Below, piece after piece: positions 30-14,829 of a DNA stretch of 14,829 nucleotides. This DNA comes from Mageeibacillus sp. UBA1243. Its GTDB lineage: Bacteria > Bacillota > Clostridia > UBA1212. Position numbers and translations under genes: made by a program. The notes under the pieces were generated by a model, which worked only from the letters and a program-made list of their open reading frames with translations, did not search any database and was not told where the DNA came from. The stretch's first letter is position 1; every line of letters starts with the position of its first letter. The stretch is from NCBI GenBank assembly GCA_002308595.1, contig DBWH01000046.1, forward strand, positions 1 to 14,829, written 5' to 3'.

Positions 30-153
30 GCGTCGGCGCAAGCTGCGCCTGCTCGTCACCAGTGGCTAAAAAACTATTCTGATGACATCGCTCGCTCCGC
101 TGCGCCTCCTTTTCCCCAAAAGTGCAAGCACTTTCGGGGGCCCCTTTCTTTCC

Positions 154-167: not shown

Positions 168-183
168 TCCGGTGCGGTTGCAG

Positions 184-225: not shown

Positions 226-226
226 T

Positions 227-302
227 TGGTGCACCTTCAGGGACTCGAACCCTGGGCCCACTGATTAAGAGTCAGTTGCTCTACCAGCTGAGCTAAAGGT
301 GC
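227..302 (-). tRNA. tRNA-Lys (anticodon CTT), CCA encoded
   Basis: Read on the minus strand, the 76-nt gene folds as a standard cloverleaf. The acceptor stem is GCACCTT pairing with AAGGTGC, and the D-arm contains AGCTCAGCTGGTAGAGC. The anticodon stem ACTGA/TCAGT encloses the loop CTCTTAA, giving anticodon CTT for lysine AAG codons. The T-arm reads CCAGGGTTCGAGTCCCTG. The discriminator base is A and the CCA end is encoded in the DNA. It decodes AAG and stands alone, with its own promoter and terminator. Confidence 0.96.
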
Positions 303-324
303 GTGCTTTCGCAACGCGAGTGCT

Positions 325-354
325 ATTATACTTCTGTCTGTGTGGGCTTGTCAA
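325..354 (-). promoter_or_regulatory. Near-consensus sigma-A promoter of tRNA-Lys
   Basis: On the minus strand a perfect TTGACA (354-349) and a perfect TATAAT (330-325) are separated by 18 bp. Transcription would start near 318, about 16 nt before the mature tRNA 5' end at 302. Such strength is usual for stable-RNA genes. Confidence 0.9.
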
Positions 355-429
355 GCGTTTTTTTGTGGATTTGCGAGGCTTTTATACACAGTTTTTCAAG
401 CTTTCTTTAGGTTTGGGGGCAGAGGGTAG

Positions 430-1206
430 TCAGTCGTCCTCTACGATGATGCAGTTTACCTTGCCGCTGAGGACGGTGGTGGCGTCGATGGCGATGAGGC
501 CGGGGTAGACAAAGGGGTCGAAGATGTGATCGGGATCGTCGATTTTGCTGTAGCTGATGTTGCCGTAACGGGTGCTGCGGTGGCCGCAGATGACGGTCTT
601 GGCGGGTTCCATGAGGTTGTGTTCGATGGCGCCAAGGTAATCCATCCAGCGCGAGCATTTCCAGTCGTTTGCGTCAGCGTTGCGCCAGTTGTCGAACGTT
701 GGCGGCAGGTAGCGAAGGTTCATGTTGGCTTCACGGCAAGGCAGCCAGCCGTGCACAAAGACGTACTTCGAGGTCTCGTAGTAGTTGATTGCCGCGGGGA
801 GGATTTTTGTGAGGGCAACCGTTTCGCGCATGGCTTCGACGAGGGCTCGGGGGCTGTTGATGACGTCAGCTTCGGAGCCGCCGGTCAGGTCGCAGAGAGT
901 TTTGAGCGTCCCGTTTTTGCGGTAGTGCGAGTGGAACACCGCGTCTGTGCCTTCGTTTTTCTCTATATAATCGAGCATATCGACCATGAGGTCCTCGTGA
1001 TTTCCGCGGAGAAGGATTGTGTTGCCGTCGTCAATGAGGTCGGACAGTGCGCGCTGCATTTGAAGGGCTTCGCCGCCGCGGTCAAAGAAATCGCCGCAGA
1101 TGATCAGCTTGTGAGGCTCTTTGTCGCCAAAGAATCCGCTGTCCTCAAGCGTCTGCATAAAAGGTGTATAGAACGAATGCAGATCGGACACTACGTAGTA
1201 CTTCAA
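430..1206 (-). CDS. Calcineurin-like (PPP-type) metallophosphoesterase, UUG start
   Basis: This is a cytoplasmic phosphoesterase of 258 residues. The dinuclear-metal motifs occur in canonical order: SDLH (D8, H10), GDFFDRG (D39, D42, R43), GNHE (N69, H70), VHG (H152) and GHRS (H209). The GDxxDRG/GNHE form is that of PPP phosphatases and symmetrical Ap4A hydrolases, so protein-phosphatase, Ap4A-hydrolase or other small-phosphoester activity is possible. The substrate cannot be read from sequence. The start is chosen at TTG 1206-1204, because AGGAGG (1220-1215) lies 8 nt upstream. An in-frame GTG at 1215 would overlap that site and give three extra residues. No signal peptide is present. The lipoprotein gene upstream ends in a terminator, so this gene probably has its own promoter, which I cannot place. 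No hairpin terminator is seen after it. Confidence 0.88.
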   Translation of the reverse strand: MKYYVVSDLHSFYTPFMQTLEDSGFFGDKEPHKLIICGDFFDRGGEALQMQRALSDLIDDGNTILLRGNHEDLMVDMLDYIEKNEGTDAVFHSHYRKNGTLKTLCDLTGGSEADVINSPRALVEAMRETVALTKILPAAINYYETSKYVFVHGWLPCREANMNLRYLPPTFDNWRNADANDWKCSRWMDYLGAIEHNLMEPAKTVICGHRSTRYGNISYSKIDDPDHIFDPFVYPGLIAIDATTVLSGKVNCIIVEDD

Positions 1207-1214
1207 ACGGGGCA

Positions 1215-1220
1215 CCTCCT
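1215..1220 (-). promoter_or_regulatory. RBS that decides a UUG start
   Basis: AGGAGG on the minus strand lies 8 nt before TTG (1206-1204) and shares its last G with the upstream GTG candidate, so it cannot serve that GTG. It supports the UUG start of the metallophosphoesterase. Confidence 0.8.
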
Positions 1221-1236
1221 TTGCATTGGCGGTAAA

Positions 1237-1282
1237 TCAAAAACCGCCCGCCGGCACAATCCGGAGAAAGAGCCTGCGGGCG
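1237..1282 (-). terminator. Terminator of the CBM9-like lipoprotein gene
   Basis: On the minus strand CGCCCGC (1282-1276) pairs with GCGGGCG (1251-1245), with GCC/GGC pairing further inside. The stem is followed by GTTTTTGA. It sits about 45 nt after the lipoprotein stop codon and before the next minus-strand gene. Confidence 0.75.
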
Positions 1283-1326
1283 ATTATCAGGCGCAGCAGA
1301 AAAGAAGCTTACGCCTTTTCAATGAA

Positions 1327-2580
1327 TCAGTAAGCTATGTACTCGTGGAGAGCCAGGCCCTTGCATGTCCAGTCGTTTCCCGGAGCAGTTGACTGATTCG
1401 TGTAGCCGTTGGCGCCAAGAACTGCGAACATGCCGAAGTAGAGGTTCTCTCTTCCGTAGTTGAATTCGTCTGCTTTCTCAACGTCGGTAACGCCGAAGAA
1501 GTCTGCGGGGATCATTGCCTCAACGACGTATCCGCCTTCTTTTGCGACAATTTTAGCATTGATGGAAGCCGTGATGTCGTTTCCGCTCTGGTTTACCTCG
1601 GTCACGTATTTGTTCGTGTGATTGTGCTGGAGAACCTTGAGCTCATCGCCGACAACGAACGACACAAACAGTCCCGTTGAATCGTCGATCCTTGCGCCGG
1701 GGTTGAAGTTCAGCTGGAGCATATCGCCTGCGGCAACTCCTGTGGCATCAATCGCCAGGTAAAGACCGTCTTCCTTGAGGCTGACGTAGTACTCAATGGC
1801 CGTGTCGCCGATTTCGCTGTTGGTCCAGGTCTTGGCGGTTTTCTTATTGAGAGAGTACTGAGCGTTGTACTCGCCTTTGACGATCGTGCCGTCAATGGCA
1901 GTCTCGGGAGCCTCAGGTCCGTTGTAGTAAAGCATGAAAAGCGCTTCCTCTTTGTTGAGGTATACAACAGAGCCGTCTTCAAGTCTTGCCACAAGAGTGA
2001 TCTCGTGTCCCTCTCCGAAGAGATTTTCAACAGGAATCGTAACGTTGAATCTCTGTGCATAGTCACCGCCAACGGCTTTAACTCCGGGCTCGGTGGCTTC
2101 GGTGGCTCTCTTCACCCAAACGACAGGGTTGCCGTCGATCTGATAACCGAACTCCTTCTGCTTCAGATCATTGAAGCCGGTCCAGCCTCTCATGCTGATG
2201 GTCTTGATTGTTCCGTCGGTTCCGTCAACGGTCTCGTCGTTTTCGGATTTCCAGAGCGAGACGTCCCCCTCGGCAACTTTTTGCTTGTTAATCAATATGG
2301 AGTCGAAAGATGCGTTGTATCCGTCTGCGTCCAACCAGTCAAGTATCTCTACTGCGTAGGGATCGTTGAAAGGCACGGGTGTGGGCTCCGGTTCTTCCGT
2401 AGGTTCCGGAGTGTTTGCCTCCGGAGTCGCTTCGGGCTCGGCTGTAGGTTCCGAGGGCTCTGCAGTGACTTCGGGAGCCTGTGTGGGATCATTCTTCTTG
2501 TCTTTCGTCTGAGTGCCGCAGCCTGCAAAAAGTGCAGCCACTAAGCATAGAGCAAGAATAACGGCTAATAATTTTTTCAT
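1327..2580 (-). CDS. Secreted lipoprotein with P/E/T linker and CBM9-like C-terminal domain
   Basis: The protein has 417 residues. Residues 1-20 form a lipoprotein signal peptide with lipobox FAGC, and Cys21 is the lipidation site, so it should be tethered outside the membrane. Residues about 31-70 are an extended linker rich in Pro, Glu and Thr (EPTPEP-like). Residues about 72-215 form an uncharacterised beta-rich module containing MRGW and FGYQIDG. Residues about 228-417 resemble the family-9 carbohydrate-binding/DOMON-like fold: an IDGTIVKGEY opening, EYYVSLKEDGLYLAID, then a final hydrophobic strand with LYFGMFAVLG. Binding of sugars outside the cell is the likely role, but no catalytic domain or transporter adjoins it. 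The start is firm: GGAGG lies 7 nt before ATG. A near-consensus promoter and a 14-bp palindrome lie upstream, and a terminator follows. Confidence 0.85.
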   Translation of the reverse strand: MKKLLAVILALCLVAALFAGCGTQTKDKKNDPTQAPEVTAEPSEPTAEPEATPEANTPEPTEEPEPTPVPFNDPYAVEILDWLDADGYNASFDSILINKQKVAEGDVSLWKSENDETVDGTDGTIKTISMRGWTGFNDLKQKEFGYQIDGNPVVWVKRATEATEPGVKAVGGDYAQRFNVTIPVENLFGEGHEITLVARLEDGSVVYLNKEEALFMLYYNGPEAPETAIDGTIVKGEYNAQYSLNKKTAKTWTNSEIGDTAIEYYVSLKEDGLYLAIDATGVAAGDMLQLNFNPGARIDDSTGLFVSFVVGDELKVLQHNHTNKYVTEVNQSGNDITASINAKIVAKEGGYVVEAMIPADFFGVTDVEKADEFNYGRENLYFGMFAVLGANGYTNQSTAPGNDWTCKGLALHEYIAY

Positions 2581-2594
2581 ATTATGACCTCCTT

Positions 2595-2608
2595 ACGGAA
2601 TATTCCGT
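2595..2608. promoter_or_regulatory. Perfect 14-bp palindrome in the lipoprotein leader
   Basis: ACGGAATATTCCGT is its own reverse complement. It lies between the promoter and the RBS of the lipoprotein gene and is followed on the plus strand by further TTCCG copies. It could be an operator for a dimeric repressor or a leader hairpin. No factor is identified. Confidence 0.45.
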
Positions 2609-2623
2609 TCCGTTCTTGCATTC

Positions 2624-2652
2624 ATTTTAACATTTTGCACGCGCATTATCAA
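2624..2652 (-). promoter_or_regulatory. Sigma-A promoter of the lipoprotein gene
   Basis: On the minus strand TTGATA (2652-2647) and TAAAAT (2629-2624) are separated by 17 bp. Each box matches consensus in 5 of 6 bases. The start point would be near 2617, just upstream of the palindrome. Confidence 0.75.
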
Positions 2653-2698
2653 TATTAAAAGCGAACCTCCGCGTATTCGTCCGGGCCGGGCGGTCCCG

Positions 2699-2727
2699 TT
2701 GACAGTTTCGCCCAAAAATAGTATTAT
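2699..2727 (+). promoter_or_regulatory. Sigma-A promoter of metG
   Basis: A perfect TTGACA (2699-2704), a 17-bp spacer and TATTAT (2722-2727, 5 of 6) sit in AT-rich DNA. The start near 2734 leaves a leader of about 110 nt before metG. It is divergent from the lipoprotein promoter, with the two -35 boxes about 46 bp apart. Confidence 0.85.
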
Positions 2728-2750
2728 ATATAATTGGTTTTTATACCCCG

Positions 2751-2801
2751 TTGGCGTCTTAAACCGCCAATGCGAAGCGCCCCTCAAACCACGCCGGGGC
2801 G
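2751..2801 (+). promoter_or_regulatory. Structured metG leader: two adjacent hairpins
   Basis: TTGGCG (2751-2756) pairs with CGCCAA (2764-2769), and GCGCCCC (2776-2782) pairs perfectly with GGGGCGC (2795-2801). Neither is followed by a U-tract, so they are not terminators. T-box landmarks, such as the GGGTGGNACCGCG-type antiterminator element, are absent. The first hairpin contains a CATTGGCGG copy. A regulatory role is unproven. Confidence 0.45.
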
Positions 2802-2845
2802 CCCTTAACACAACCGATTTTAGAAACTTTGGAGGCATATCCGAA

Positions 2846-4828
2846 ATGGCTGAAAACAAGACTTACTATATAAGCACTCCGATTTACTACCCGAGCGACA
2901 AGCTTCACATCGGGCACTCTTACACGACCGTTGCGGCGGACTGCATGGCAAGGTACAAGAGGCTCAAGGGCTTTGACGTCATGTTCCTCACGGGAACGGA
3001 CGAGCACGGAATAAAAATCGAAAAGCGAGCAGCCGCGAAAGGTGTGACGCCGCAGAAATATGTTGACGATATCGTTGCAGGCATAAAGGATCTCTGGTCC
3101 ATTATGGACATTTCCTACGACAAGTTTATCCGCACCACGGACGACTATCACGTGAAAGCCGTTCAGAAGATCTTCAAAGAGCTCTACGACAAGGGAGAGA
3201 TCTACAAGGGATTCTACGAGGGCTACTACTGCACGCCCTGCGAGTCGTTCTGGACAAAGACGCAGCTCGTTGACGGGTGCAAGTGCCCGGACTGCGGCGC
3301 GGAGACTCAGATTGCCAAGGAGGACTGCTACTTCTTCAGACTTTCGAAGTACAGCCGCGTTCTCATAGATTATTTCAACGACCATCCGGAGTTCATCAGC
3401 CCCGCCGCAAGAAAGAACGAAATGATCGTAAACTTCCTTGAAAAAGGCCTTGAGGACCTCTGCGTGTCGCGCTCGTCCTTCAAGTGGGGCATCCCCGTGA
3501 CATTTGACGAGGGACACGTTGTCTACGTCTGGGTGGACGCACTTTCGAACTACATCACGGCTCTCGGATACGGCAGTGACGACACGTCGCTCTACGACAA
3601 GTTCTGGCCCTGCGACCTGCACCTTGTCGGCAAGGAAATCGTTCGTTTCCATACGATCATCTGGCCGGCGATCCTCATGGCGCTCGGTCTGCCTCTTCCG
3701 AAGAGAGTTTACGGCCACGGCTGGCTGCTTCTCAACGGCGACAAGATGTCGAAATCCAAGGGCAACGTTGTCGATCCCGTTGTGCTCGTGAACAAGTACT
3801 CATCCGACGCGATCAGGTATTTCCTGCTCCGCGAAGTTCCGTTCGGTTCCGACGGCAGCTTCACGCCCGACGCGCTCCTTACGCGCATCAACGCCGACCT
3901 CGCCAATGACCTCGGAAACCTCGTCTCAAGAACGGTTTCGATGCAGCTCAAGTACTTTGGCGGCATCGCCCCATCAGAAGCTGACAGAAAATCAGAGGCC
4001 ATCGACAATGAGATCATCGGCATGTTCAAAGAGCTCAAAGCCAACGTGGAGGAGCAGATGGAAGCGCTCCAGTTCCCGCTCGCTCTGACCGAGATCTGGA
4101 AGTGTGTGTCGCGCCTCAACAAATATATTGACGAGACCGCTCCGTGGGCCCTTGCCAAGAACGAAGACGACAAGCCGCGTCTCGCGCAGGTTCTTTACGT
4201 GCTCTGCGAAGGCATCAGGATCATAGGTGTTCTTCTTGAACCCTTCATGCCGAGGACTCCCGAAAGGATCTTCGAGCAGCTTGGCATTGCCGGCAACGCA
4301 GCCATCACTTCGTGGGATTCGTGCTCCGAGTGGGGCCTCTACCCCGCAGGCACGGTCTGCAAGAAAGGCGACGCGCTCTTCCCGAGGCTTGACATCCAGA
4401 AGGAACTTGAGGACCTCGAGGCCATCAAAATCGCCAACGCCGAAGCCGCCAAGGCCGCAGCGCCCTCTCCCGCACAAGCTCCCGTAAAAGACGCCGGAGC
4501 GGAGGGGCTTGCAACCATTGACGATTTCGCAAAGATAAAGCTTGTGATTGCAGAAGTTGTCTCCGCGGAGGCAGTCGAAGGCTCAAACAAGCTGCTCAAG
4601 CTTCAGCTGAACGTCGGCAGCGCCACGAAACAGGTCGTTTCCGGTATCGCCAAGGCGTACAAGCCGGAAGACCTTGTCGGCAAAAAAGTTGTTTTCATCA
4701 ACAATCTCGTACCCGCTAAGCTCAAGGGCGTCGTTTCGGAGGGTATGGTTCTTGCGGCTTCAAACGGCTGCAGCCTCTCGCTGCTCACCTCGTTTGAGGA
4801 CATGCCCGCAGGCACCGAAATCTACTGA
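2846..4828 (+). CDS. metG: Methionyl-tRNA synthetase with C-terminal tRNA-binding domain
   Basis: This enzyme charges tRNA-Met and initiator tRNA with methionine, using ATP, in the cytoplasm. The 660 residues show the class I signatures HIGH (21-24) and KMSKS (300-304). A cysteine knuckle (C129, C132, C147, C150, with an extra C145) matches zinc-binding MetRS of this type. After the anticodon-binding helices (about 390-530), an Ala/Pro-rich linker leads to an EMAP-II/Trbp-like tRNA-binding domain (about 558-660), which usually mediates dimerisation. The start at ATG 2846 is preferred, because TTTGGAGG lies 10 nt upstream and MetRS proteins begin with this [15 protein letters not shown] strand. 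The open frame extends 49 codons further 5', but those codons overlap the promoter and leader. It has its own promoter and a structured leader. Only a weak terminator follows. Confidence 0.97.
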
Positions 4829-4847
4829 TTCTTGCCGTCCGGTTAAG

Positions 4848-4875
4848 GGGCGCGGCTTGGGAAAGGCGCTTTTTG
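4848..4875 (+). terminator. Weak terminator-like hairpin after metG
   Basis: GCGC (4851-4854) can pair with GCGC (4867-4870), and the outer pairs are mostly G-U, before a TTTTT run. The stem is short, so read-through from metG into licD is likely. I list it only as possible. Confidence 0.3.
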
Positions 4876-4903
4876 CATTGGCGGAAGGCGGATCTAAGAT
4901 ATA

Positions 4904-5842
4904 ATGGACCAGAGCAACAAAGACATCCGGTTCGAAGACCATTTCGGACAGAACCGAAAGACCGGCGGGGATCCGGTCGATCTCAAATACATCAAGGGTA
5001 TTCATTATGCGCAGGAGCAGCTGCTTGTCGAGGTTGACCGCATCTGCCGCGCGAATGATATCACTTATTTTCTTTGGGCGGGCACTCTTCTCGGCGCCGT
5101 GAGGCACAAGAATTTCATCCCGTGGGACGACGACGTTGACGTTGCGATGACAAGGGAGAATTTTGAGAAGTTCCTGAAGATCGCGCCGAAGGAGCTTGGC
5201 GGCAGCTTTGAGCTCGTTATGCCGGGCGAGAACGGACGGTTTTTCGACATGATCCCCAAGATTAACTACGTGCCGAGCATTCTCCGGAAAAAGAACGACG
5301 GAGACGACTTTTACGGTGACAGACACAACAGGGTTTCGCTTGACGTGTTCTGCCTCGACAATCCCAAGTCCGGTCTCGGCTTCAAGTTCCAGCTGCTGAA
5401 CCTCAAGAAGTGGTACGGCTACGCCATGGGCCACAGACAGGCGATTTATTCCGAAAAATACGGTTTTTTCCAGAGACCGGTGATTAAGCTTCTTGCGGGC
5501 ATCGGCAGGAAAAAGCCAATGGAAAAGATACTTGCCGGCCAGCGCAAAGCCTCGATTTCGGGCAAAAAGCGCGACGCGGAACACCTCTGCGTTTTCAACG
5601 AGAGGATATTCTTCATATACCCCCGCTTCAGGTCGGAGTGGTTCGAAAAGACCGCCGAGTACGAGATCAGGGGACACAAGTTCACGTCGATATGCGATGC
5701 AGATTCATACCTCCGCTTCGTGTACGGAGACTACATGCAGCTGCCTCCTGAGGAGAAAAGAAGGCCGATGCACGCTGATATACTGCCGGACGTTGTGGTC
5801 TATGACCTTGGCGGCAATCTCATCAACTGCGACGAAGACTGA
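4904..5842 (+). CDS. LicD-family phosphotransferase
   Basis: The protein has 312 residues. LicD proteins belong to the nucleotidyltransferase fold and transfer phosphocholine or related phospho-groups to surface glycans or teichoic acids. The core signature is intact at residues 60-80: GTLLGAVRHK, then NFIPWDDDVDV. D75-D77 and D79 are the likely metal and catalytic acids, and the upstream helix (about 30-55) matches the family N-terminus. There is no signal peptide or clear membrane segment, so it acts at the cytoplasmic face. The RBS is weak (GGCGGA about 11 nt before ATG), and a CATTGGCGG copy lies 20 nt upstream of the start. The GT87-like gene follows after 48 nt, suggesting a shared surface-glycan role. 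The transferred group is unknown: choline-specific genes such as licA, licB and licC are not in the window. Confidence 0.88.
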   Translation: MDQSNKDIRFEDHFGQNRKTGGDPVDLKYIKGIHYAQEQLLVEVDRICRANDITYFLWAGTLLGAVRHKNFIPWDDDVDVAMTRENFEKFLKIAPKELGGSFELVMPGENGRFFDMIPKINYVPSILRKKNDGDDFYGDRHNRVSLDVFCLDNPKSGLGFKFQLLNLKKWYGYAMGHRQAIYSEKYGFFQRPVIKLLAGIGRKKPMEKILAGQRKASISGKKRDAEHLCVFNERIFFIYPRFRSEWFEKTAEYEIRGHKFTSICDADSYLRFVYGDYMQLPPEEKRRPMHADILPDVVVYDLGGNLINCDED

Positions 5843-5876
5843 GAAAGTCTTCTCACCTATTATTCGGATTTTTAAT

Positions 5877-5882
5877 AAGGAG
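5877..5882 (+). promoter_or_regulatory. RBS that decides a UUG start
   Basis: AAGGAG lies 8 nt before TTG 5891. The first in-frame ATG is 23 codons further on, inside the first membrane segment, and has no RBS, so the UUG start is favoured. Confidence 0.8.
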
Positions 5883-5890
5883 CCGTTATT

Positions 5891-7375
5891 TTGGGAAAAA
5901 AGCAAAAGGGAAGTCCTGTTGTGAAAGACCTGCGGAAGCCTCACTTCAAGAGCTTCTATTATGTTCTTATTGCCCTTTTCCTGCTTCTTTTCTTTGCGAC
6001 ACTGCTTCTTTCGGGCGGAACCAAGCTCACCGCGGCGCTTTTCGGCGACAGAGTGGACACTTTCATGGACCACTACAACAGCGTCATTTACAACGAGGTC
6101 AAAGACCCCTACGAGATTCTGGTGGTGTACCCGCCGCTCGCATCGCTGCTCTACAAGCTCTGCAACATTGCAATCCCCGCTGACGACTACTATTCGTATG
6201 TGACCGATCCGTCGGTGCTCTCGCAGGACCGCGGGCTCAAGGTCAGCCAGTCTTTCACGTTCCAGTTCATCCTTTACGCGATTGTCGCAGTGCTCATATT
6301 CCTCGCGGCTCTCTGCCTCCTGAAAAAAGGTTCCAACGCCGAAAAGGCTCTGTTTGCGGCCGCAACGCTTCTGTCGTCGCCCTTCCTCTACATGGCCGAC
6401 CGCGGAAACAACGTAATACTGCCCGTCGCGTTTTCAATGATTTTTGTGGTGCTCTACAACCACGAGAACAAGGTTCTGAGGGAGCTCGGGCTGATTTCAT
6501 TGGCGGTGGCCGTGGGTCTCAAAATATACCCGCTCGCGTTCCTGCTGTTTTTCATCGCAGACAGACGCTACAAGGATCTCCTGCGTGAAATTCTCTATAT
6601 TTGCGTGCTTTTGGTGCTTCCCTTCTTCATTTTCTACAACGGTTTTTCAAGCATGAAGCTGATGCTGAAGAACCTCTTCGGATTTGACGCCAAGCGCACG
6701 ACCGAGTCAAACCTTGCCGGCCAGCTCGATTTCAAGCGCATGTTTTTCTACACCTACGGGTTCACGCAGCGCTTCACGGGCATCGTGATTTCGGACCGCA
6801 TGCGCGAAGTTTACGCCAATATCTGCCGCTACGGCATGTCGGCGGTCTGCGCCCTCGGCACTATTTTTACGGACAAAATGTGGAAGCGCACAATGCTCAT
6901 CGCGGCCGTGATCTACGGCTTCCCGGGCTCCGCGTCCACTTACATACTTCTTTTCATGGTAATCCCGACCGCCCTCTTCCTTGACGAGGAGAAGACGCCA
7001 AGCTTTAAAAACTACCTCTACCTCTTCCTCATTGTGATGACGCAGGTGCCCATAATCGTACGCTCGGGCGACGGCTACTCAAGGCACGCACCCACCAAGA
7101 TTTCAAGCGCCGCAGTCGGCCTCATCGTTCTGATCGCATTTATAGAGCTTATCGCGGGCTTTGCCGCGTGGAACGAGGCGCGCCGGAAGAACGGGCAGAA
7201 GTTTTTCAGGAGCGCAGGCGGCGCGCTTAAAGCAAAGTTTGTTAACGTTAAAAGCGCCGCAGCTGACGCTTCAGGCGCGGCGGCAATCGGCGAAACGGCT
7301 GAAACGGCGGCTGAAACTGCTGCCGAACAGGCTGAAACGCCTGAAGGCTGTGCGGAAGGGGGCGAGGCTGAATGA
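5891..7375 (+). CDS. GT87/DUF2029-like multipass membrane glycosyltransferase
   Basis: The protein has 494 residues and about ten hydrophobic segments, the first at about 22-42. It has the layout of polyprenol-phosphate-sugar-dependent GT-C enzymes (GT87, PimE-like). Family-typical positions are an acidic first outer loop (D53, D56, D60), YPPL (80-83), DRGNN (170-174) and GLKIYP with K211. A conserved LAGQLDF lies near 275-281. It probably transfers a sugar from a lipid-linked donor on the outer membrane face. The donor and acceptor are unknown. The start is UUG with a good RBS. The C-terminus (about 455-494) is an Ala/Glu/Thr low-complexity tail from repeated GCTGAAAC-like DNA, with no counterpart in the downstream paralog. 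Its TGA overlaps the next ATG (ATGA), indicating translational coupling. Confidence 0.8.
   Translation: MGKKQKGSPVVKDLRKPHFKSFYYVLIALFLLLFFATLLLSGGTKLTAALFGDRVDTFMDHYNSVIYNEVKDPYEILVVYPPLASLLYKLCNIAIPADDYYSYVTDPSVLSQDRGLKVSQSFTFQFILYAIVAVLIFLAALCLLKKGSNAEKALFAAATLLSSPFLYMADRGNNVILPVAFSMIFVVLYNHENKVLRELGLISLAVAVGLKIYPLAFLLFFIADRRYKDLLREILYICVLLVLPFFIFYNGFSSMKLMLKNLFGFDAKRTTESNLAGQLDFKRMFFYTYGFTQRFTGIVISDRMREVYANICRYGMSAVCALGTIFTDKMWKRTMLIAAVIYGFPGSASTYILLFMVIPTALFLDEEKTPSFKNYLYLFLIVMTQVPIIVRSGDGYSRHAPTKISSAAVGLIVLIAFIELIAGFAAWNEARRKNGQKFFRSAGGALKAKFVNVKSAAADASGAAAIGETAETAAETAAEQAETPEGCAEGGEAE
7299..7353 (+). repeat. Imperfect GCTGAAAC-type repeats encoding an Ala/Glu tail
   Basis: GCTGAAAC recurs at irregular short spacing, with degenerate copies between, and encodes an ETAE/AETAAE-like stretch at the end of the first GT87-like protein. 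Such low-complexity DNA is prone to length change by slippage. Confidence 0.6.
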
Positions 7376-8676
7376 AGCTGAAAGGGCTTAAGCTTGACCC
7401 CAAAAAGGCATACTACAGGCAGCTTTTCTTCTTCCTGATGACCGTGTTTGCGCTGTCGTTCCTTGGCGTGTTGCTCTTCACGGGCGGCTACTCCATTCGC
7501 GGCCTGCTCGCTTCGGACAGATACGGCTCCTTCATGGAGTTTTTCAACAAGCTCATCCTGTCGGGCGGCGACTCATACCGCTCCGGCTCCGTCACGGCGC
7601 CCTTTGCGCTGCTATTCTACAGATGCCTGTTGCTCTTTGTTCCGGGCAGTGTGATTGACCGGTACGTTCCGAGCAGGGTCTCGTCCGCTTATCCCGCGGA
7701 GGTCAAGATCTACCAGGAGTTCAACTACCCGTTCATACTGTTCTCGGTCATCGCGATCTTCCTGCTCTTCTTTGCCCTCAAGGCGCTCAAAAAAGGAAGC
7801 GGATGCGAGCGTTTCGCGTTCATTTTCTTCATTTTCCTGTCATCGCCAATGCTTTTCGGCTTCGAAAGAGGCAGTGACGTTGTGATTACGGTGGCGCTTT
7901 GCGCGCTTTTCATTGGCGGCAAGGACTCCGAAAAAAAGATTGTCAGGAACCTTTCGCTCGCTGCCCTTGGCGTTGCAGGGGCGCTTGCCGTCTATCCGCT
8001 GCTGTTTTGCATTCTGCTGCTTAAAAAGAAAAGATTCATCGACGCGGGGAAGGTCCTCGCAGTCTTTGTCGTGCTCACTGTTCCGGCGCTTTTCATCGTC
8101 GGAGGCGGTTTTGCGGGCGCCGCAAAGTACATCGCCAATATAATTGCCGTGTGGAAGGAAAACAGCCTTCTCCTGACGGGCCAGCTGAATTTCTCGAAGT
8201 GCCTGATCAACCTGTTTGCGGGCACGTCGGCTTCAAACGGCCTGCTCTTTGCTGCCGGAAATATTTTCGCCTGCGTCATCGGTGTTTTGGCGCTCGCCGC
8301 GGCCTTCCTTGCCAAAAAAGAGTGGCAGACGGCCGCTCTCGTTTGCGGTCTGATTGCCGGGCTCGCGCCCCTCTGCGAGACACATCTGCTCGCGTTCTTT
8401 GCAATCCCGCTCGCGATGTTCCTTGATGCGGAAGACGCCAACGCGCCTGCCTCGTACGTCACACTCATCCTTTTGACTTTAACGCAGGCGCTCGTCGTAT
8501 CGCCCGACGCGGCCGTGCACGGCTACACGAGGATGTTCGTCACAAGGCTCACGGGCTACGGAACGCTCGTGCTTGTCGTGCTCGTCGCGGCCACGGCCGC
8601 GGCGGACTTTGCCAAGGGGCTTTACCGGGCGCGCAAAGGGGACGCCGCGGAGGGCATTGGCGGCAAAGCTCAATAA
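7372..8676 (+). CDS. Degenerate GT87-like membrane paralog
   Basis: The protein has 434 residues and the same multipass layout as its upstream neighbour, so it is a tandem duplicate. Shared features by eye are DR(Y/V)xxFM in the first loop, LTGQLNF versus LAGQLDF, VYP versus IYP, and matching hydrophobic segments. Several positions typical of the first copy have changed: D56 to G52, D60 to E56, YPP to TAP (75-77), DRGNN to ERGSD (165-169), and the Lys of KIYP to A206. It may have another specificity or be a non-catalytic partner of the first copy. The 4-bp ATGA overlap should give matched synthesis. I see no convincing terminator after the stop, only T-runs leading into the next promoter region. 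Confidence 0.75.
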   Translation: MKLKGLKLDPKKAYYRQLFFFLMTVFALSFLGVLLFTGGYSIRGLLASDRYGSFMEFFNKLILSGGDSYRSGSVTAPFALLFYRCLLLFVPGSVIDRYVPSRVSSAYPAEVKIYQEFNYPFILFSVIAIFLLFFALKALKKGSGCERFAFIFFIFLSSPMLFGFERGSDVVITVALCALFIGGKDSEKKIVRNLSLAALGVAGALAVYPLLFCILLLKKKRFIDAGKVLAVFVVLTVPALFIVGGGFAGAAKYIANIIAVWKENSLLLTGQLNFSKCLINLFAGTSASNGLLFAAGNIFACVIGVLALAAAFLAKKEWQTAALVCGLIAGLAPLCETHLLAFFAIPLAMFLDAEDANAPASYVTLILLTLTQALVVSPDAAVHGYTRMFVTRLTGYGTLVLVVLVAATAAADFAKGLYRARKGDAAEGIGGKAQ

Positions 8677-8685
8677 AGATTTTTT

Positions 8686-8718
8686 CGCCTTTTTTGTGTA
8701 TAATACCTTTAAAAGGCG
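8686..8718. promoter_or_regulatory. Candidate promoter with an inverted repeat around its -10 box
   Basis: A perfect TATAAT (8699-8704) lies between the arms CGCCTTTT (8686-8693) and AAAAGGCG (8711-8718), an exact 8-bp inverted repeat. No good -35 box lies 16-18 bp upstream, so this would be a weak or activated promoter. The repeat is placed where a repressor would block the -10 region. Neither strand shows a U-tract after the repeat, so it is not a standard terminator. Confidence 0.5.
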
Positions 8719-8762
8719 GCTGTAGTATATTTTAGATTGCTGACGGTTAAGGAGGAATACAA

Positions 8763-10592
8763 ATGAAGATTCGTTTAGCAGATTATATCGCGGATTTTTT
8801 GGCAAACCACGGTGTCACCGACGTGTTCAGTGTAGTCGGCGGCGGCGCCATGCACCTCAACGATGCTCTGGGACATCATCCCAAACTCAGCGTGCTTTAC
8901 AACCATCACGAGCAGGCCTGCGCGATTGCGGCGGAGGCATATGCGCGTCTTGAAAATAAGATTGCGGCGGTGTGCGTCACTTCCGGCCCCGGAGGAACCA
9001 ATGCGATCACGGGCGTTGTCGGCGGCTGGCTTGACTCCATCCCTATGTTCGTGCTGACGGGCCAGGTGCGTTACGACACGACTGCAAGATACGCCCTTCC
9101 CTTTACCGGCGAGCCTCTTCGCGCAATGGGCGACCAGGAGTACGACATCACCAAGGCGGTCTCGGCAATGACAAAATACGCCGTTATGGTCGAGGACCCG
9201 CTTGAAATTAGATACATTCTCGAAAAGGCCTGGCACCTTGCCACAACGGGCCGTCCGGGACCTGTCTGGATCGACGTTCCGGTTAACTTCCAGGGCGCGA
9301 CCATTGAAACCGATGACCTGCGAGGCTATGACCCCGCTGAGGACGACGCAAAGCTGCCGCCTCCGGTCGCGCAGAATACCATTGGCGAGATCCTCGAAAA
9401 AATCGCCAAGGCAAAGCGCCCGGTCTTCCACGCGGGCTACGGAATCAGGCTCTCAGGCGGTTACGACGAGTTCCGGAAGGTGCTTGAGAAGCTCAACATA
9501 CCCGTTGTCACGTACTGGAACGCGGTCGATCTGATTGAAGACGACCATCCTCTCTACTGCGGACGCGCCGGAAACATGGGCGACAGGCCCGGAAACTGGG
9601 CGATTCAGAACGCGGACCTCATACTTGCCGTGGGCACGAGAATTTCGATCCGCCAGGTCGGCTATAACTGGAAGACGTGGGCAAGGGCCGCCGAGGTCAT
9701 CATGGTCGACATTGACAAGGCCGAGCTCAAGAAGCCTACCCTCCACGTCGAATACCCCGTCTGGGCAGACGCCAAGGACTTCCTCACGAAGCTCGACAAA
9801 GCCGCCAAGGGCCCCGTTTTCAAGGGTGAGGACTGGCTTGAGACCTGCCGCACCTGGAAAAAGGACTACCCCGCCGTCCTTCCCCGCCAATGGGAAGAAA
9901 ACGGCAAGACCGCAAACGTCTACGCTTTCGTGCGCTACCTCAGCAGCCGCCTCCCCGAGAACAGTCTCACGGCGGTTTCAAACGGCGCCTGCTGCGTTGT
10001 CGGCAACCAGGCCTACGTGATTCAGAAGGGCAGCCGCATGGCCAACAACAGCGCCATCGCCAGCATGGGTTACGGACTTCCGGCCGCTATAGGCACGTGC
10101 GTCGGCGGCGGCAGAAAAAACACGATCTGCCTTGAGGGCGACGGAAGCATCATGATGAACCTCCAGGAGCTCCAGACGATCATCACCAACAACCTGCCCA
10201 TAAAGATATTCCTCATCAACAACAACGGCTACCACTCGATCAGGATCACGCAGACCAACATTTTCGGTCACCACACCAAGGTCGGCATCGGTCCCGAATC
10301 AGGCGATCTCTCGTTCCCCGAGTTCAAAAAGATTGCCGAGGCGTTTGGCTACAGGTATTTCTCGTGCTCTTCGAACGCCGAAATGAAAAAAGTCGTTGAC
10401 GAGGTGCTCGCGCTTGACGGCCCCGTGTTCTGCGAAGTTTTCACGGACACGGTCCAGGTCTGGGAACCCAAGAGCAGCGCCAAAAAACTTCCCGACGGCA
10501 GCCTCGTCAGCCCGCCGCTTGAGGACCTTGCGCCTTTCCTCCCAAGGGAAGAGCTCAAAAAACAGATGTTTATACCGCTTGTAGACGAATAA
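8763..10592 (+). CDS. Acetolactate-synthase-like ThDP-dependent enzyme
   Basis: The protein has 609 residues in three domains. The N-terminal Pyr domain has catalytic E50 in HHEQACAIAAEAYAR, SGPGGTN, and DSIPMFVLTGQV. The central domain is of the FAD/NAD-like type (VFHAGYGIRLSGG to VDIDKAEL). The C-terminal ThDP-binding domain starts at GDGS (459-462) and contains the NNNGYHS loop. The set matches large subunits of acetohydroxyacid synthase and relatives. At the usual FQE position it reads DQE (124-126), so the substrate-pocket Phe is replaced by Asp. No ilvN, ilvC or ilvD adjoins. It is therefore probably not the biosynthetic enzyme but a specialised decarboxylase or carboligase, possibly one that adds a two-carbon branch to a sugar as in YerE. 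That last idea is inference. The start is secure: AAGGAGG lies 7 nt before ATG. Confidence 0.85.
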   Translation: MKIRLADYIADFLANHGVTDVFSVVGGGAMHLNDALGHHPKLSVLYNHHEQACAIAAEAYARLENKIAAVCVTSGPGGTNAITGVVGGWLDSIPMFVLTGQVRYDTTARYALPFTGEPLRAMGDQEYDITKAVSAMTKYAVMVEDPLEIRYILEKAWHLATTGRPGPVWIDVPVNFQGATIETDDLRGYDPAEDDAKLPPPVAQNTIGEILEKIAKAKRPVFHAGYGIRLSGGYDEFRKVLEKLNIPVVTYWNAVDLIEDDHPLYCGRAGNMGDRPGNWAIQNADLILAVGTRISIRQVGYNWKTWARAAEVIMVDIDKAELKKPTLHVEYPVWADAKDFLTKLDKAAKGPVFKGEDWLETCRTWKKDYPAVLPRQWEENGKTANVYAFVRYLSSRLPENSLTAVSNGACCVVGNQAYVIQKGSRMANNSAIASMGYGLPAAIGTCVGGGRKNTICLEGDGSIMMNLQELQTIITNNLPIKIFLINNNGYHSIRITQTNIFGHHTKVGIGPESGDLSFPEFKKIAEAFGYRYFSCSSNAEMKKVVDEVLALDGPVFCEVFTDTVQVWEPKSSAKKLPDGSLVSPPLEDLAPFLPREELKKQMFIPLVDE

Positions 10593-10657
10593 CTGACAGC
10601 TTCCCCGCATCGCATCCAAGAGAAGTCAGCCTCTTTTAACTGAAAGGAGACCACAAA

Positions 10658-11524
10658 ATGTCTGAACCGATTGTCGCTTTGCTGTATGACTTTGACCGCA
10701 CGCTTTCCACGCAGGACATGCAGAACTACAGGTTCATCCCGAGCCTTGACATGGATCCGGCGGAATTCTGGGGATGCGCCAACGACTTTGCCCAGGAAAA
10801 CAAGATGGACGGAATATTGGCGTATATGTACACCATGATCAGACTCGCCAAGGAAAAAGGCGTTGTCTTCGACCGCGAAACTCTCGTAAAAATGGGCAAA
10901 AACATCGAGTTCTTCAAAGGCGTGCCCACATGGTTTTCAAGGATCAACGAGTTCGGAAAGACCAGGGGTGTCACGGTCGAGCACTACATCATCTCGTCCG
11001 GCCTCAAGGAAATTCTGGAAGGATGCGCGATCAGGGACTGCTTCAAAGAAATCTTCGCGTGCGAGTTCCTCTACAACAAGGAAGGAAACCCGGTCTGGCC
11101 GAAGGTCAGCGTCAACTACACCAACAAGACACAGTTCATTTACAGGATAAACAAGGGCGTCCTTGACATCTCGGACGACAAAAGGCTCAACGCGTCAATG
11201 CCGGACAACGACAAGCGCGTCAGGTTCAGCAACATGATTTACCTTGGCGACGGTCTCTCGGACGTGCCCTGCATGAAGATGGTCAAGGCTTATGGCGGCA
11301 AGTCCATTGCCGTGTACGACCCCGAAATCAGGGACAACAGGGAGAAATTCTCCAAAGTTGCCGATCTTCTCATGAAGGACCGCGTCGACTTTATCCTCCC
11401 CGCAGACTACAGCGAAGGCGCAGAGCTTGAAACGACCGTCAGGAACATCATTTCCAGCATGGCGGCGGACGACATCCTTGACGCCGAAAGCACACGCCAA
11501 CGCGAAATGCTCAGAAACGACTGA
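10658..11524 (+). CDS. HAD-superfamily phosphatase
   Basis: This is a cytoplasmic protein of 288 residues. HAD motifs occur in order: DFDRT (D11 nucleophile, D13 acid/base, T15), ISSG (112-115), a likely motif III Lys in TNKTQF (K157), and GDGLSD (197-202, metal-binding acids). A helical cap lies between about 20 and 100. The layout resembles phosphoserine-phosphatase-like (PF12710) members, so hydrolysis of a small phosphorylated metabolite is expected. The substrate is unknown. The start has a good RBS (AAAGGAG, 8 nt). It follows the ThDP gene after 65 nt with no promoter seen, so the two are probably co-transcribed. A weak hairpin (10618-10635, AAGAG/CTCTT) lies in the gap. A strong terminator closes the unit. 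Confidence 0.88.
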   Translation: MSEPIVALLYDFDRTLSTQDMQNYRFIPSLDMDPAEFWGCANDFAQENKMDGILAYMYTMIRLAKEKGVVFDRETLVKMGKNIEFFKGVPTWFSRINEFGKTRGVTVEHYIISSGLKEILEGCAIRDCFKEIFACEFLYNKEGNPVWPKVSVNYTNKTQFIYRINKGVLDISDDKRLNASMPDNDKRVRFSNMIYLGDGLSDVPCMKMVKAYGGKSIAVYDPEIRDNREKFSKVADLLMKDRVDFILPADYSEGAELETTVRNIISSMAADDILDAESTRQREMLRND

Positions 11525-11550
11525 ACGCCCCGTCTTAAGGGCAAAAAAAA

Positions 11551-11611
11551 ATCCCCCGGCAGGCACGCGCAGATTTTTCTTCTGCATAAGGTGCCCTGCC
11601 GGGGGTATTTT
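11551..11611. terminator. Strong bidirectional terminator between convergent genes
   Basis: CCCCCGGCAGG (11553-11563) pairs perfectly with CCTGCCGGGGG (11595-11605). GGCAC/GTGCC extends the stem in an alternative register with one bulge. It is flanked by an A-run on the left and T-rich sequence on the right, so it ends both the HAD gene on the plus strand and htrA on the minus strand. Confidence 0.9.
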
Positions 11612-11619
11612 TTAGTTAT

Positions 11620-12762
11620 TTACATTATTGCGCCGTCCTTGGTGTTCCAGCCCTCCGGTACCATATCCGGGCTGTACTCGTCAAGCGTTACGGTCAGTTC
11701 AAACTCCTTGTTGTTGTAGACGCCTTTAACGGTCACAGTCGTGCCTGCGGGCTTTCCTCTGACCACAACGTCAAGCTCCTCAGGGGTGGTGATTTCCGTC
11801 GAGTCAACCTCGGTGATGAGCATGCCTTCGGCGAGGCCTGCCTTTTCGGCCGCGCTGCCCTCAATTACGTAGCTTACGTACGCTCCGCTGACTCTTGACG
11901 AGCCGAAATAGCTTTGGCGGTAGGCGACTGCTGCGGCGATGCCGAGGGCGCCCTTGCCCTTTACGAAGCCGTACTCGATGAGCTGGGTTGCGATGTTAAG
12001 AGCGTCGTTGATCGGAATGCAGAAGCCGATGCCTTCGATGAGGTTCTTTTTTACCTTGGCGGTGACCATGCCTATAACGTGGCCTCTGGCGTCAAATGCG
12101 GGGCCGCCGGAGTTGCCTTCGTTGACCGCAGCGTCGATCTGGAACACTATGATGGGCGTGCCGTCCTCGTTGATTGCCCTGTTGAGAGCGCTGACAACGC
12201 CTCTTGAGAGTGAAAACGTGAGCTCGCCAAGGGGATTGCCGATGACCACCACGTCCTCGCCCACAACGATCTCGGAGGTGTTGCCGAAAACAGCGGGCTG
12301 GAGGTCCGTCGCGTCGATCTTGAGCACCGCCACGTCGTTTGACTTTTCGGCGCCCACAACCTCCGCCTCATACCGGGTCCCGTTGTAAAGGGTGACCGTG
12401 AAGCTGGTTCCGTCCTCGATGACATGGTTGTTGGTGAGTATGTAGCCGTCCGACGTCAGCACTATTCCGGTGCCTGAGGAGGCGTTGATGGTGGTCTGGC
12501 CGAATATATTCTCCGATTTGCTCTGGGATTTGATGCCGACCACCGAATTTACGTTGTTGCGGTAGATATCCACCACCGAATATGATTCTTCCGAGGATGA
12601 ACCCCGTTTAAAAGAGGTGCTGACCGCATTGGCGGCGCTTGTGCCGGACTGGCCGGGTCTCCTCTCGCGGGTTATCGTTGTGGGTCCGCAGCCGGAGAAG
12701 GTCGAGATTGCCAGCGCCAAAACCGCGGCAGTAACAAATATTTTTGCAATTCTTTTTTTCAT
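11620..12762 (-). CDS. HtrA/DegP-family serine protease, lipoprotein-anchored
   Basis: This protease of 380 residues acts in surface protein quality control. The signal peptide ends at lipobox FSGC with Cys25 as the lipid anchor, followed by a Ser-rich linker (about 38-60). The trypsin-like domain has a complete triad: H113 (NNHVIED), D143 (SNDVAVLKID) and S218 (GNSGGPAF). A single PDZ domain (about 275-365) contains AEKAGLAEGMLI. Most Bacillota HtrA proteins use an N-terminal transmembrane helix, so lipid anchoring is less common. The start at ATG 12762 has AAAGGA about 10 nt upstream. It has its own promoter, and a 15-bp inverted repeat lies just upstream of it. The M29 gene ahead is on the same strand but separated by this promoter. 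Confidence 0.93.
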   Translation of the reverse strand: MKKRIAKIFVTAAVLALAISTFSGCGPTTITRERRPGQSGTSAANAVSTSFKRGSSSEESYSVVDIYRNNVNSVVGIKSQSKSENIFGQTTINASSGTGIVLTSDGYILTNNHVIEDGTSFTVTLYNGTRYEAEVVGAEKSNDVAVLKIDATDLQPAVFGNTSEIVVGEDVVVIGNPLGELTFSLSRGVVSALNRAINEDGTPIIVFQIDAAVNEGNSGGPAFDARGHVIGMVTAKVKKNLIEGIGFCIPINDALNIATQLIEYGFVKGKGALGIAAAVAYRQSYFGSSRVSGAYVSYVIEGSAAEKAGLAEGMLITEVDSTEITTPEELDVVVRGKPAGTTVTVKGVYNNKEFELTVTLDEYSPDMVPEGWNTKDGAIM

Positions 12763-12796
12763 AATAAATCAGTCCTTTCGGGATTATCCAGTTTAA

Positions 12797-12826
12797 ATTA
12801 TACCTTGCAAACTGAAATTATCACAA
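12797..12826 (-). promoter_or_regulatory. Promoter of the htrA-like gene
   Basis: On the minus strand TATAAT (12802-12797, perfect) is preceded by TTGTGA (12826-12821, 4 of 6) with an 18-bp spacer. The region is AT-rich. The start would be near 12790. Confidence 0.7.
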
Positions 12827-12844
12827 AACCGCGCTGTGTTGGAA

Positions 12845-12863
12845 GGAATATTTCCGGGAAATA
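12845..12863. promoter_or_regulatory. Inverted repeat upstream of the htrA promoter
   Basis: TATTTCC-G-GGAAATA (12849-12863) is a perfect 7-bp inverted repeat with a 1-bp centre, about 23 bp upstream of the -35 box. It overlaps GGAATATTTCC (12845-12855), which resembles the GGAATATTCC core of the palindrome before the other lipoprotein gene. It is a candidate operator. It has no U-tract, so it is unlikely to be a terminator of the M29 gene. Confidence 0.4.
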
Positions 12864-12866
12864 CCT

Positions 12867-14093
12867 TTAAGCCCACTCGCCGTTTACGATTATCGGAACC
12901 CTCTTCCCGTCTCCGGTGACGCCCGTTATGCAGAGCGTGCTGTCGCCGATCATGAAATCGACGTGGCCAAGAGAGTCGTTGACGCCCGCCTTCCTGATTT
13001 CCTCCTGCGAAAGGTTCTCCCAGCCGTCGATAACCTCATTGAAGCCCACGCCAAGGGCAAGGTGACAGCTCGCGTTCTCGTCAAAGAGCGTGTTCAGGAA
13101 AAGAATGCCCGTTTTACTGACCGGCGAGCTGTTCGGAACGATTGCGACCTCGCCGAGCATAGCTGATCCCTCGTCAAGCGTAATGATTGTCTTGAGCAGG
13201 TCGGCGCCCTTTTCGGCCTCCCAGGAGACCGCCTTGCCGTCTTTAAACGTAATGTTGAAGTTCTCGATTAGGCTTCCGTTGTACGAAAGAGGCTTCGTCG
13301 CATAGACCCTGCCCTCGACAACGCCGCGCATCGGCGATGAGAAAATCTCCTCCGTCGGAAGGTTCGGAACGTAGAAAACCCCGTATCTTGAGGTGTCGCC
13401 GCCGCCAATGAACTTCGCGCCCTTGATGAGTCCTACCTTAAGGTCTGTGCCCTTGGCGGTTTTGTACTCAAGCGACCTCAGGTCGAGCGAGTTCAGCCAG
13501 TCGCATTTTTCGGCATAAACTGCCTTTCTGGCGTTCCATACCGCCTCGGGGTCGTTGTCCTCCGTCACGTAAACGGTGCTGAGTATGGCCTGCCAGAGCT
13601 TTTCGACCCCTGCGGCGGGCTTTTCGTCCGGAAACACAGCCTTTGCCCATGCCTTTGAGGGGATGGCGGCAATGCACCACTGCTGAATGCCTTCGACCGC
13701 GTCCCTGTACTTCTTCATAACCGCTTTTCTTGCGCGGCTTACTTTAAGCAGTTTTTCGGCGTTGATGCCTTTAAGTGCGTCCGGTGCGTCCGACTCGATA
13801 AGAATCCTTGCGGCATTTTCGTCGACCATCTCCTGCGCCTTGGCCTCGATCCACTTGCTGACTTTTTTCATTGTCGTGAGAGACTGATGTCTGAAGTCCA
13901 GCTTCGTGAGCTTGTTGGACAGAAATTCGACGCGGACCTTGCCGGCACCTGCGCGGTAGCACTCCTCCGCTAAAATTACGGCAAAATCTTCGCATTCGGC
14001 TGCGATGTCTATCACAACGCTCTGTCCCTTCTGAACGTTCACGCCCACGCGGGCAATAAGTCTTGCATATTTTCTGATCAGTGTCTTTTTCAT
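12867..14093 (-). CDS. M29-family (AmpS/PepS-like) metalloaminopeptidase
   Basis: This cytoplasmic aminopeptidase of 408 residues, the normal family length, removes N-terminal residues from peptides using two metal ions. Family metal ligands are recognisable: Glu in NLPTEEIF (248/249), E315 (LGEVA), H344 (ASCHLALG), and H377 with D379 (GHVDF). The N-terminal domain (about 1-190) matches the family pattern. The start is ATG 14093. The nearest strong RBS core (AAAAGGAG) is 13 nt upstream, which is long, so translation may be modest. A CATTGGCGG copy sits 36 nt upstream in the leader. A terminator-like hairpin separates it from the CD1247-like gene, so it may be transcribed independently, but I cannot place its promoter. 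Confidence 0.92.
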   Translation of the reverse strand: MKKTLIRKYARLIARVGVNVQKGQSVVIDIAAECEDFAVILAEECYRAGAGKVRVEFLSNKLTKLDFRHQSLTTMKKVSKWIEAKAQEMVDENAARILIESDAPDALKGINAEKLLKVSRARKAVMKKYRDAVEGIQQWCIAAIPSKAWAKAVFPDEKPAAGVEKLWQAILSTVYVTEDNDPEAVWNARKAVYAEKCDWLNSLDLRSLEYKTAKGTDLKVGLIKGAKFIGGGDTSRYGVFYVPNLPTEEIFSSPMRGVVEGRVYATKPLSYNGSLIENFNITFKDGKAVSWEAEKGADLLKTIITLDEGSAMLGEVAIVPNSSPVSKTGILFLNTLFDENASCHLALGVGFNEVIDGWENLSQEEIRKAGVNDSLGHVDFMIGDSTLCITGVTGDGKRVPIIVNGEWA

Positions 14094-14151
14094 GTCTTTC
14101 AGTAAACTCCTTTTACCGCCGCGGGGTACATTGGCGGTTTCATCTTATTTA

Positions 14152-14187
14152 AAAGGGCCGCCCGGCAACACCGCCAAACCGCCCTTT
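14152..14187 (-). terminator. Probable terminator after the CD1247-like gene
   Basis: On the minus strand AAAGGGC (14187 side) pairs with GCCCTTT (14158-14152), a 7-bp stem around a GC-rich loop, followed by TTTTAAAT. It ends the efp/CD1247-like unit before the M29 gene. The U-tract is short, so some read-through is possible. Confidence 0.5.
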
Positions 14188-14222
14188 GTCTTAACTCTTG
14201 TAAATTTTTGATCGTTCCGGAA

Positions 14223-14663
14223 TTATTCGTCCTTGTTTGCAGGGCAATTGTCGCAATCGCCGTCGCAGTCGTCGTAATCGTCGCAGGCATCCTCGGTGGA
14301 AATTGTCACTTTCTCACCGCATCCGGGACAGTCAAGAGTTATTTCTTCATCCGACTCAAGCAGTTCCTCGTCTACAGGAAGTATCTCGCCGCAGTTCGGG
14401 CAGCGGAACTCTTCGATAAAGTCATCCTCGTCCTCGTCAGCATCCTCGTCGTCATACAAAAAGTCATAAAGGTCTTCCTGTGTGTCCGCAAGCTCTTCGG
14501 AAATATCATTCTGCTTCTCGTCAATGTTCTCGATCGATGAAGCCATATCGTCAAGCAGCTCAATGATCTCGCCGAAAATTCTGCTCTCCGGGCTGTTCTC
14601 GTCAAGCTTGATGCCGTCAACAAGTCCTCTGAGATAACTTACTCTCTCTGTTAAATAACCCAT
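14223..14663 (-). CDS. CD1247-type zinc-ribbon protein
   Basis: This is a small acidic protein of 146 residues. The N-terminus (1-67, MGYLTERVSYLRGL onward) is a helical, coiled-coil-like domain of the CD1247 N-terminal family, typical of clostridia and often encoded next to efp. An Asp/Glu-rich stretch (71-85) leads to a zinc ribbon with C88/C91 and C112/C115. The last 20 residues add four more cysteines (C127, C133, C137, C140) among Asp residues, an unusual tail that could bind a further metal. The function of the family is unknown. The start is firm: AGGAGG lies 6 nt before ATG. It follows efp by 30 nt, so the two are likely one operon. Confidence 0.87.
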   Translation of the reverse strand: MGYLTERVSYLRGLVDGIKLDENSPESRIFGEIIELLDDMASSIENIDEKQNDISEELADTQEDLYDFLYDDEDADEDEDDFIEEFRCPNCGEILPVDEELLESDEEITLDCPGCGEKVTISTEDACDDYDDCDGDCDNCPANKDE

Positions 14664-14693
14664 ACGAATCCTCCTGTAAATAGGGCCCGGTCG

Positions 14694-14829
14694 TCAGGCT
14701 CTTTCCATGTACTCTTCTGTTCTGGTGTCGATTCTGATTCTGTCGCCAATGTTAATGAAGAGCGGAACCTTTACCGTAGCGCCTGTCTCAACCGTAGCGG
14801 GCTTAACCGTTCCGGTAGCTGTGTCGCCT
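14694..14829 (-). CDS. efp: Elongation factor P, C-terminal part (cut by window edge)
   Basis: The last 44 codons of EF-P are visible, in the frame that ends at TGA 14696-14694. They read from [17 protein letters not shown] through [17 protein letters not shown] to YMERA, the conserved OB-fold domain III. EF-P enters the ribosomal E-site region and relieves stalling at polyproline. Domain I, with the modifiable loop, lies beyond the window. The next gene on the strand, the CD1247-like protein, starts 30 nt downstream. Confidence 0.95.

Follow-up and report, generated by a model that had tools for sequence, protein, structure and literature searches.

Why should one 9-base word, CATTGGCGG, recur ten times within 14.8 kb of clostridial DNA? 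The word was noticed in a stretch of 14,829 nucleotides from Mageeibacillus sp. UBA1243 (contig DBWH01000046.1, positions 1 to 14,829; the window hereafter), where a preliminary description had likened it to an uptake- or Chi-type genome motif. We followed the word through the assembly that holds the window (G000; 1,818,744 bases in 68 contigs, 77% complete) and through its relatives. The favored reading, to which we assign a probability of roughly 0.6, is that an 8-base core of this word, CATTGGCG, serves throughout the genome as a DNA uptake sequence and that a type IV pilus reads it.

A strict octamer throughout the genome

All ten copies of CATTGGCGG described for the window, seven on the plus and three on the minus strand, were recovered within the span given for them; 200 dinucleotide shuffles yielded 0.17 copies on average and never more than 2. 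This count understated the genome-wide signal. Across the assembly, the word occurs 324 times forward and 333 times reverse, 657 in all, versus 23 (8 and 15) for a control with the same pattern read backwards, and the excess thus extends beyond the window. The first 324 kb of G000 served for the coding null, the spacer logo, the 9-mer ranking, and the orientation counts by GC skew and gene strand. Expected numbers were obtained by synonymous-codon shuffling within genes and from an order-3 Markov model in spacers; the gene calls came from a home-made codon-usage caller, and the coding and spacer labels are therefore approximate. Among 9-mers with at least 12 occurrences, CATTGGCGG scored highest over the order-3 Markov expectation, and it again came first among 9-mers when tested by synonymous shuffling and when tested in spacers. 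Coding copies numbered 87 versus 8.0 expected and spacer copies 45 versus 1.0 expected, the word being denser in spacers. The enrichment thus stands far above a codon-aware expectation and is independent of codon usage.

The motif proper is an 8-mer, CATTGGCG, which also has a second form, CCTTGGCG. CATTGGCG occurred 202 times in coding sequence (26 expected) and 71 times in spacers (2.9 expected), and its 1,549 copies in G000 amount to 852 per Mb, or about 1 per 1.2 kb, compared with no more than about 104 per Mb across 244 other genomes drawn from the class (sizes rounded, congeners outside the draw). CCTTGGCG was strong in coding sequence (206 versus 40) and weaker in spacers (16 versus 2.6). 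Any substitution at positions 3 to 8 left only 0 to 5 spacer copies, versus 71 for CATTGGCG, whereas position 1 tolerated T for C (18 copies) and position 2 tolerated C for A (16 copies). The ninth base was examined in a 571-kb sample of G000 (34 stretches including the window, approximately 31% of the assembly), which also served for the conservation controls and for the gap, atypical-region, and strand counts. At 495 sites the ninth base was G in 46%, T in 27%, A in 25%, and C in 2%, so it is better described as anything but C than as G. The eleventh base also shunned C (4%), and positions 10 to 13 preferred T, A/T, T, and C. The T-rich 5' flank noted earlier was real but weak (T in 43% at position -3), and the 3' side carried more information.

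As expected of an uptake sequence, copies of the motif lay inside and outside genes and on either strand, with no overall polarity. The coding excess was nearly the same in sense (+174) and antisense (+157) orientation in the 571 kb and is therefore independent of the transcribed strand. Of 278 sites, 157 agreed with GC skew and 161 with the majority gene strand, a weak polarity measured by local proxies used in place of the replication origin, the genomes available not being closed; the strand bias proposed as a check thus came out as slight, within that limit. Spacer copies ran 70 with and 42 against the majority strand. Spacing was near random (coefficient of variation, 0.96 to 1.05), with no sign of even spacing, and no bias toward gene ends was seen, as deciles were flat across 351 sites. 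In the 571 kb, only 17 pairs of CATTGGCG lay within 60 bases of each other, of which 9 were inverted.

Clade restriction and the type IV pilus

Counts of CATTGGCGG in 58 genomes separated four of the six congeners (G000 to G005) from all others. G000 (657), G004 (580), G001 (284), and G003 (150) were rich in the word, with no excess in G002 (25; control, 30) and a mild one in G005 (63; control, 17), where the 8-mer excess was barely visible (3 versus 1.1 expected in 46 kb). The highest count outside the genus was 58, in G037 (control, 11). In a midpoint-rooted ComEC tree, the four motif-rich species formed one clade (100/99), with G005 and then G002 outside it. Strong enrichment is thus restricted to a single clade. 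Within it, a variant, CATTGGTT, was strongly enriched only in G003 (27 versus 1.7 expected, compared with 21 versus 11 in G000, 6 versus 6.2 in G004, and 0 versus 0.5 in G001), and we therefore regard it as a species-specific dialect.

Other enriched words were encountered farther afield. TTGGCGGA looked like a dialect of another pilus-bearing genome, being seemingly enriched at locus L157, but was rejected, as its genome count was near the control (111 versus 90); in another genome, G062, it occurred 174 times (control, 99). In G006, of the same family, words of the TGAGTCAGGGGGC type were enriched at loci L081 to L085, with CTGACTCA at 19 versus 1.5, perhaps as a dispersed repeat. Words of the AACCGTGAACC type occurred 12 to 17 times in 20 kb of L192, a metagenome-assembled genome of Methylomirabilota.

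The preliminary description had named comEA, comEC, and type IV pilus genes as a check on the uptake idea, and we searched for them in nine family genomes, namely, the six congeners and three others. A full-length PilB-like ATPase (E of about 1e-139 to T2SSE) was present only in the four motif-bearing genomes, and PilC was found in the same four and in none of the other five. Genes for minor pilins, a 402-residue protein, prepilin peptidase, PilC, and PilB follow one another in the pilB operon; a PilT-family ATPase was found in G001, G003, and G004, with the G004 copy above the cutoff. At the threshold used for the order-wide comparison (E ≤ 1e-100), PilB had no match in the five other family genomes or in 20 of 22 other genomes of the order, and the nearest homologue outside the clade, at 71%, belonged to another family of the class. 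This distribution suggests that the clade gained its PilB by transfer, with loss elsewhere as the alternative. The names attached to the nearest PilB loci also point to Clostridia as the class of the organism. The general competence core was broadly distributed: ComEC and ComEA (HHH_3) were found in all nine family genomes and DprA in eight. Thus, the motif-bearing clade holds the combination expected of a host of uptake sequences, a pilus together with ComEA, ComEC, and DprA. No secretin was detected in any of the nine.

Two sets of long proteins were also noted. A 903-residue GAP1-N2 domain protein (L138:4124-6835) lies directly 3' of pilB, and its homologues adjoin pilB in all four pilus-bearing congeners. 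On contig 6 of G000, a 1,487-residue protein (L040:6942-11405) has a prepilin N terminus and a weak, below-cutoff Hint match; a second long prepilin-like open reading frame (about 640 residues) adjoins it, and the two are possible giant pilin-linked adhesins.

Sites were also conserved between species. For this comparison, 571 kb of G000 were aligned with 305 kb of G004, leaving out pieces shorter than 200 or 150 columns, pieces overlapping a better one, and gapped sites. In 60.9 kb of alignment (81.5% identical), 32 of 53 CATTGGCG sites were exactly kept, compared with 812 of 3,019 permuted control words (27%; Fisher test, 4.6e-7) and with 12.3 sites expected from words matched for gene and frame (z = 6.7). 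Conservation between relatives, another of the early checks, was therefore far above control for this pair. It did not extend to distant congeners: G003 (74.7% identical) kept 5 of 28 sites versus 12.6% for control words, a difference that was not significant, G001 kept 0 of 8, and G002 kept 0 of 4, and G005 had no aligned site. Sites are thus held over the short term and turned over in the long term; the results for G003 and G001 count among the points against uptake taken up below.

The window and the competing explanations

Within the window, CATTGGCG occurred 14 times and CCTTGGCG 15 times. Copies of CATTGGCGG lay in spacers at 1224..1232 (+), 4876..4884 (+), and 14129..14137 (+), and at 2764..2772 (-) in the spacer 5' of the methionyl-tRNA synthetase gene (called start, 2846), which itself carries an antisense CATTGGCG core with A as the ninth base at 3901..3908 (-). 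Sense copies of CATTGGCGG were found at 6498..6506 (+) in gene 5921-7375, at 7911..7919 (+) and, at the 3' end, 8655..8663 (+) in gene 7372-8676, and at 13402..13410 (-) in gene 12867-14093; antisense copies were found at 9884..9892 (-) in gene 8763-10592 and at 12627..12635 (+) in gene 11620-12762. The remaining copies of CATTGGCG lay at 7844..7851 (-), antisense in gene 7372-8676, at 9380..9387 (+), sense in gene 8763-10592, and at 14744..14751 (-) in a gene continuing past the window end.

If the word is an uptake sequence, its preferred form would be CATTGGCG, then a base other than C, and then T, A/T, T, and C, with CCTTGGCG tolerated. The clade-specific pilus would capture word-bearing DNA outside the cell and retract, the DNA would pass via ComEA and ComEC, and DprA and, by assumption, RecA would assist its recombination. 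If DNA with the word is taken up and recombined in preference to other DNA, the word would thereby multiply and persist across the genome on either strand, inside genes as well as between them. Competence, uptake by the pilus, its reading of the word, and the identity of a pilin receptor are in this scheme predictions from genome sequence.

Several observations weigh against this reading. The best NCBIfam model for the G000 PilB was type IV-A PilB, nearly tied with type II GspE and with both below cutoff, and the best model for its PilC was GspF, again below cutoff; PilT was not found in G000, which is 77% complete. A ComP-like basic receptor was not identified among the minor pilins found: the pilB operon has three, and the two with computed charge (in three species each) were acidic in the head. 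The match of motif and pilus is one event on one branch of the ComEC tree, with G005 only 79% complete, and because both occur in a single clade it is a single observation rather than a correlation. A type IV pilus need not come with the motif: around PilB genes from elsewhere, 80 loci (3.0 to 22.5 kb) held at most 0.51 C[AC]TTGGCG per kb, whereas the pilus stretches of G000, G004, and G003 had 1.8, 1.5, and 0.65, respectively. The best observed count among such other loci was 3 versus 0.5 expected, and 15 other PilB-positive relatives held 10 to 28 nine-mers. Copies in tandem spacers were oriented with the genes (41 same versus 15 opposite), which avoidance of false starts or start miscalling may explain, since the reverse complement contains ATG. 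Finally, atypical regions were poorer in sites (0.70 versus 1.63 per kb). A depletion of sites in foreign DNA was nevertheless rejected, as GC correction removes most of the effect (17.7- versus 23.6-fold). Several of the longest motif gaps contained atypical genes, for example, for a UPF0236 protein and a lectin-type protein, and 3 of 10 scanned proteins had no family match. The UPF0236 protein, at L147:11780-13282 inside a motif-free stretch, we take to be an ISLre2-type transposase.

Uptake could instead proceed through a Tad-type pilus. A second, shorter T2SSE protein (about 400 to 470 residues) was present in all nine family genomes; in the three classified (G000, G002, and G005) its best model was a TadA-type ATPase, below cutoff, and a T2SSF-like protein followed it in the two genomes checked, that of G002 just under the Pfam cutoff. 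Since this ATPase occurs with or without the motif, it does not track it. Its gene, found on L116, L110, and L113 in G000, G002, and G005, shares a contig with the ComEA gene in several genomes, at a distance of about 16 kb.

Among explanations other than uptake, the one that survives best, though we still consider it unlikely, is that the word is the site of an abundant chromosome-organizing protein or the target of a clade-specific DNA methylase. The strict core, soft flanks, site conservation, and clade restriction would suit any DNA-binding protein; weighing against this, though weakly, are about 1,500 near-randomly spaced (coefficient of variation, about 1), nonpalindromic sites, many of them inside genes, a pattern that would be unusual for a regulator.

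Less probable still is a Chi-like recombination signal read by AddAB. The word is an overrepresented octamer of Chi-like density, shares the TGGnGG string with Chi, and is mildly co-oriented with the majority gene strand, and AddB-like genes were found in five of the six congeners. However, AddB, the only AddAB gene searched, gave matches below the curated cutoff throughout and did not track the motif, since it was present in motif-free G002 and G005 and not found in G000, an incomplete assembly. Agreement with GC skew was weak, by strand proxies that are themselves local and weak, and the coding excess was nearly equal on both strands. The Chi reading is disfavored because polarity is weak and because congeners with AddB-like genes lack the motif. 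Thus, of the two possibilities first raised, Chi fits poorly, while uptake fits the density, the weak polarity, the strict core with its softer flanks, the use by one clade with a variant in one species, and the co-occurrence with a pilus.

Biased repair or gene conversion favoring a word without function would account for the spread through genes and spacers on both strands, but we give it a smaller chance again, as a substitution-intolerant 8-base core in one clade only would demand a sequence-specific repair enzyme, and we know of none for such a word. An artifact of codon usage or base composition, or a dispersed repeat or mobile element, can be discounted almost entirely: many coding copies do fall in few frames, reading Ile-Gly and Ala-Asn, and 206 of the 222 CCTTGGCG copies of the first sample lie in genes, but the synonymous shuffles and spacer counts rule out the former, the flanks, which differ from each other beyond about five bases, rule out the latter, and the word is common to four species.

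Known uptake systems and implications

A 2025 paper names two families, Neisseriaceae and Pasteurellaceae, both of them Gram-negative, as the only ones in which such self-marking for uptake is known. Almost every competent species beyond Neisseria and Haemophilus is described in PMC12040237 as taking up DNA without sequence preference. A screen of Veillonella (PMC5397411) found no word of at least 10 bases occurring 100 times and left 9-mers open. No report of a Gram-positive uptake sequence was among the matches listed in the literature searched, where subscription journals were thinly covered.

The uptake signal sequence of Haemophilus influenzae (Pasteurellaceae) resembles the present word in its nonpalindromic core of about 9 bases, density of about 1 per kb, presence on both strands and in genes and spacers, and apparently random spacing (PMC2346458 and PMC5397411). 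It is a different word, its hosts have an outer membrane, whereas here none of the nine family genomes had a secretin, and its uptake has been demonstrated, whereas here uptake is predicted. A gene-end bias reported for most Pasteurellaceae (PMC2346458) was not seen here. The DNA uptake sequence of Neisseriaceae is likewise a clade-specific word with variant dialects (PMC3630211) in bacteria with a type IV pilus, and that of Neisseria starts with ATG (PMC2346458), while the reverse complement of the present word ends with ATG. It differs in its ComP receptor, no such basic pilin having been identified among the pilins here, and in its inverted pairs, which here were few.

The pilin receptor in these two systems is ComP or, by prediction, PpdA/ComN. 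A strong strand skew would be expected of FtsK/SpoIIIE orienting sequences; the local proxies used here showed little skew. The ComG competence pili of Streptococcus and Bacillus are alike in being type IV filaments that work with ComEA and ComEC and without a secretin; unlike them, the present clade has a full-length PilB-like ATPase, PilT in three species, and a candidate sequence preference.

Overall, the balance leans somewhat toward an uptake-sequence system, the first beyond Neisseriaceae and Pasteurellaceae, that evolved independently in a single-membrane lineage of Clostridia on the branch of an apparent pilus gain and that has at least one diverging dialect (CATTGGTT in G003). If so, it would be a third, independent case of self-marking, in Bacillota, and would bear on the long-standing question of why only two families do so. 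It would let one ask whether uptake sequences need an outer membrane, and whether pilus or word arose first could be addressed with the motif-bearing and motif-free sister species, given that both seem to have been gained on one branch. It would also mean that these bacteria exchange genes by transformation and that the word could serve as a handle for transforming them.

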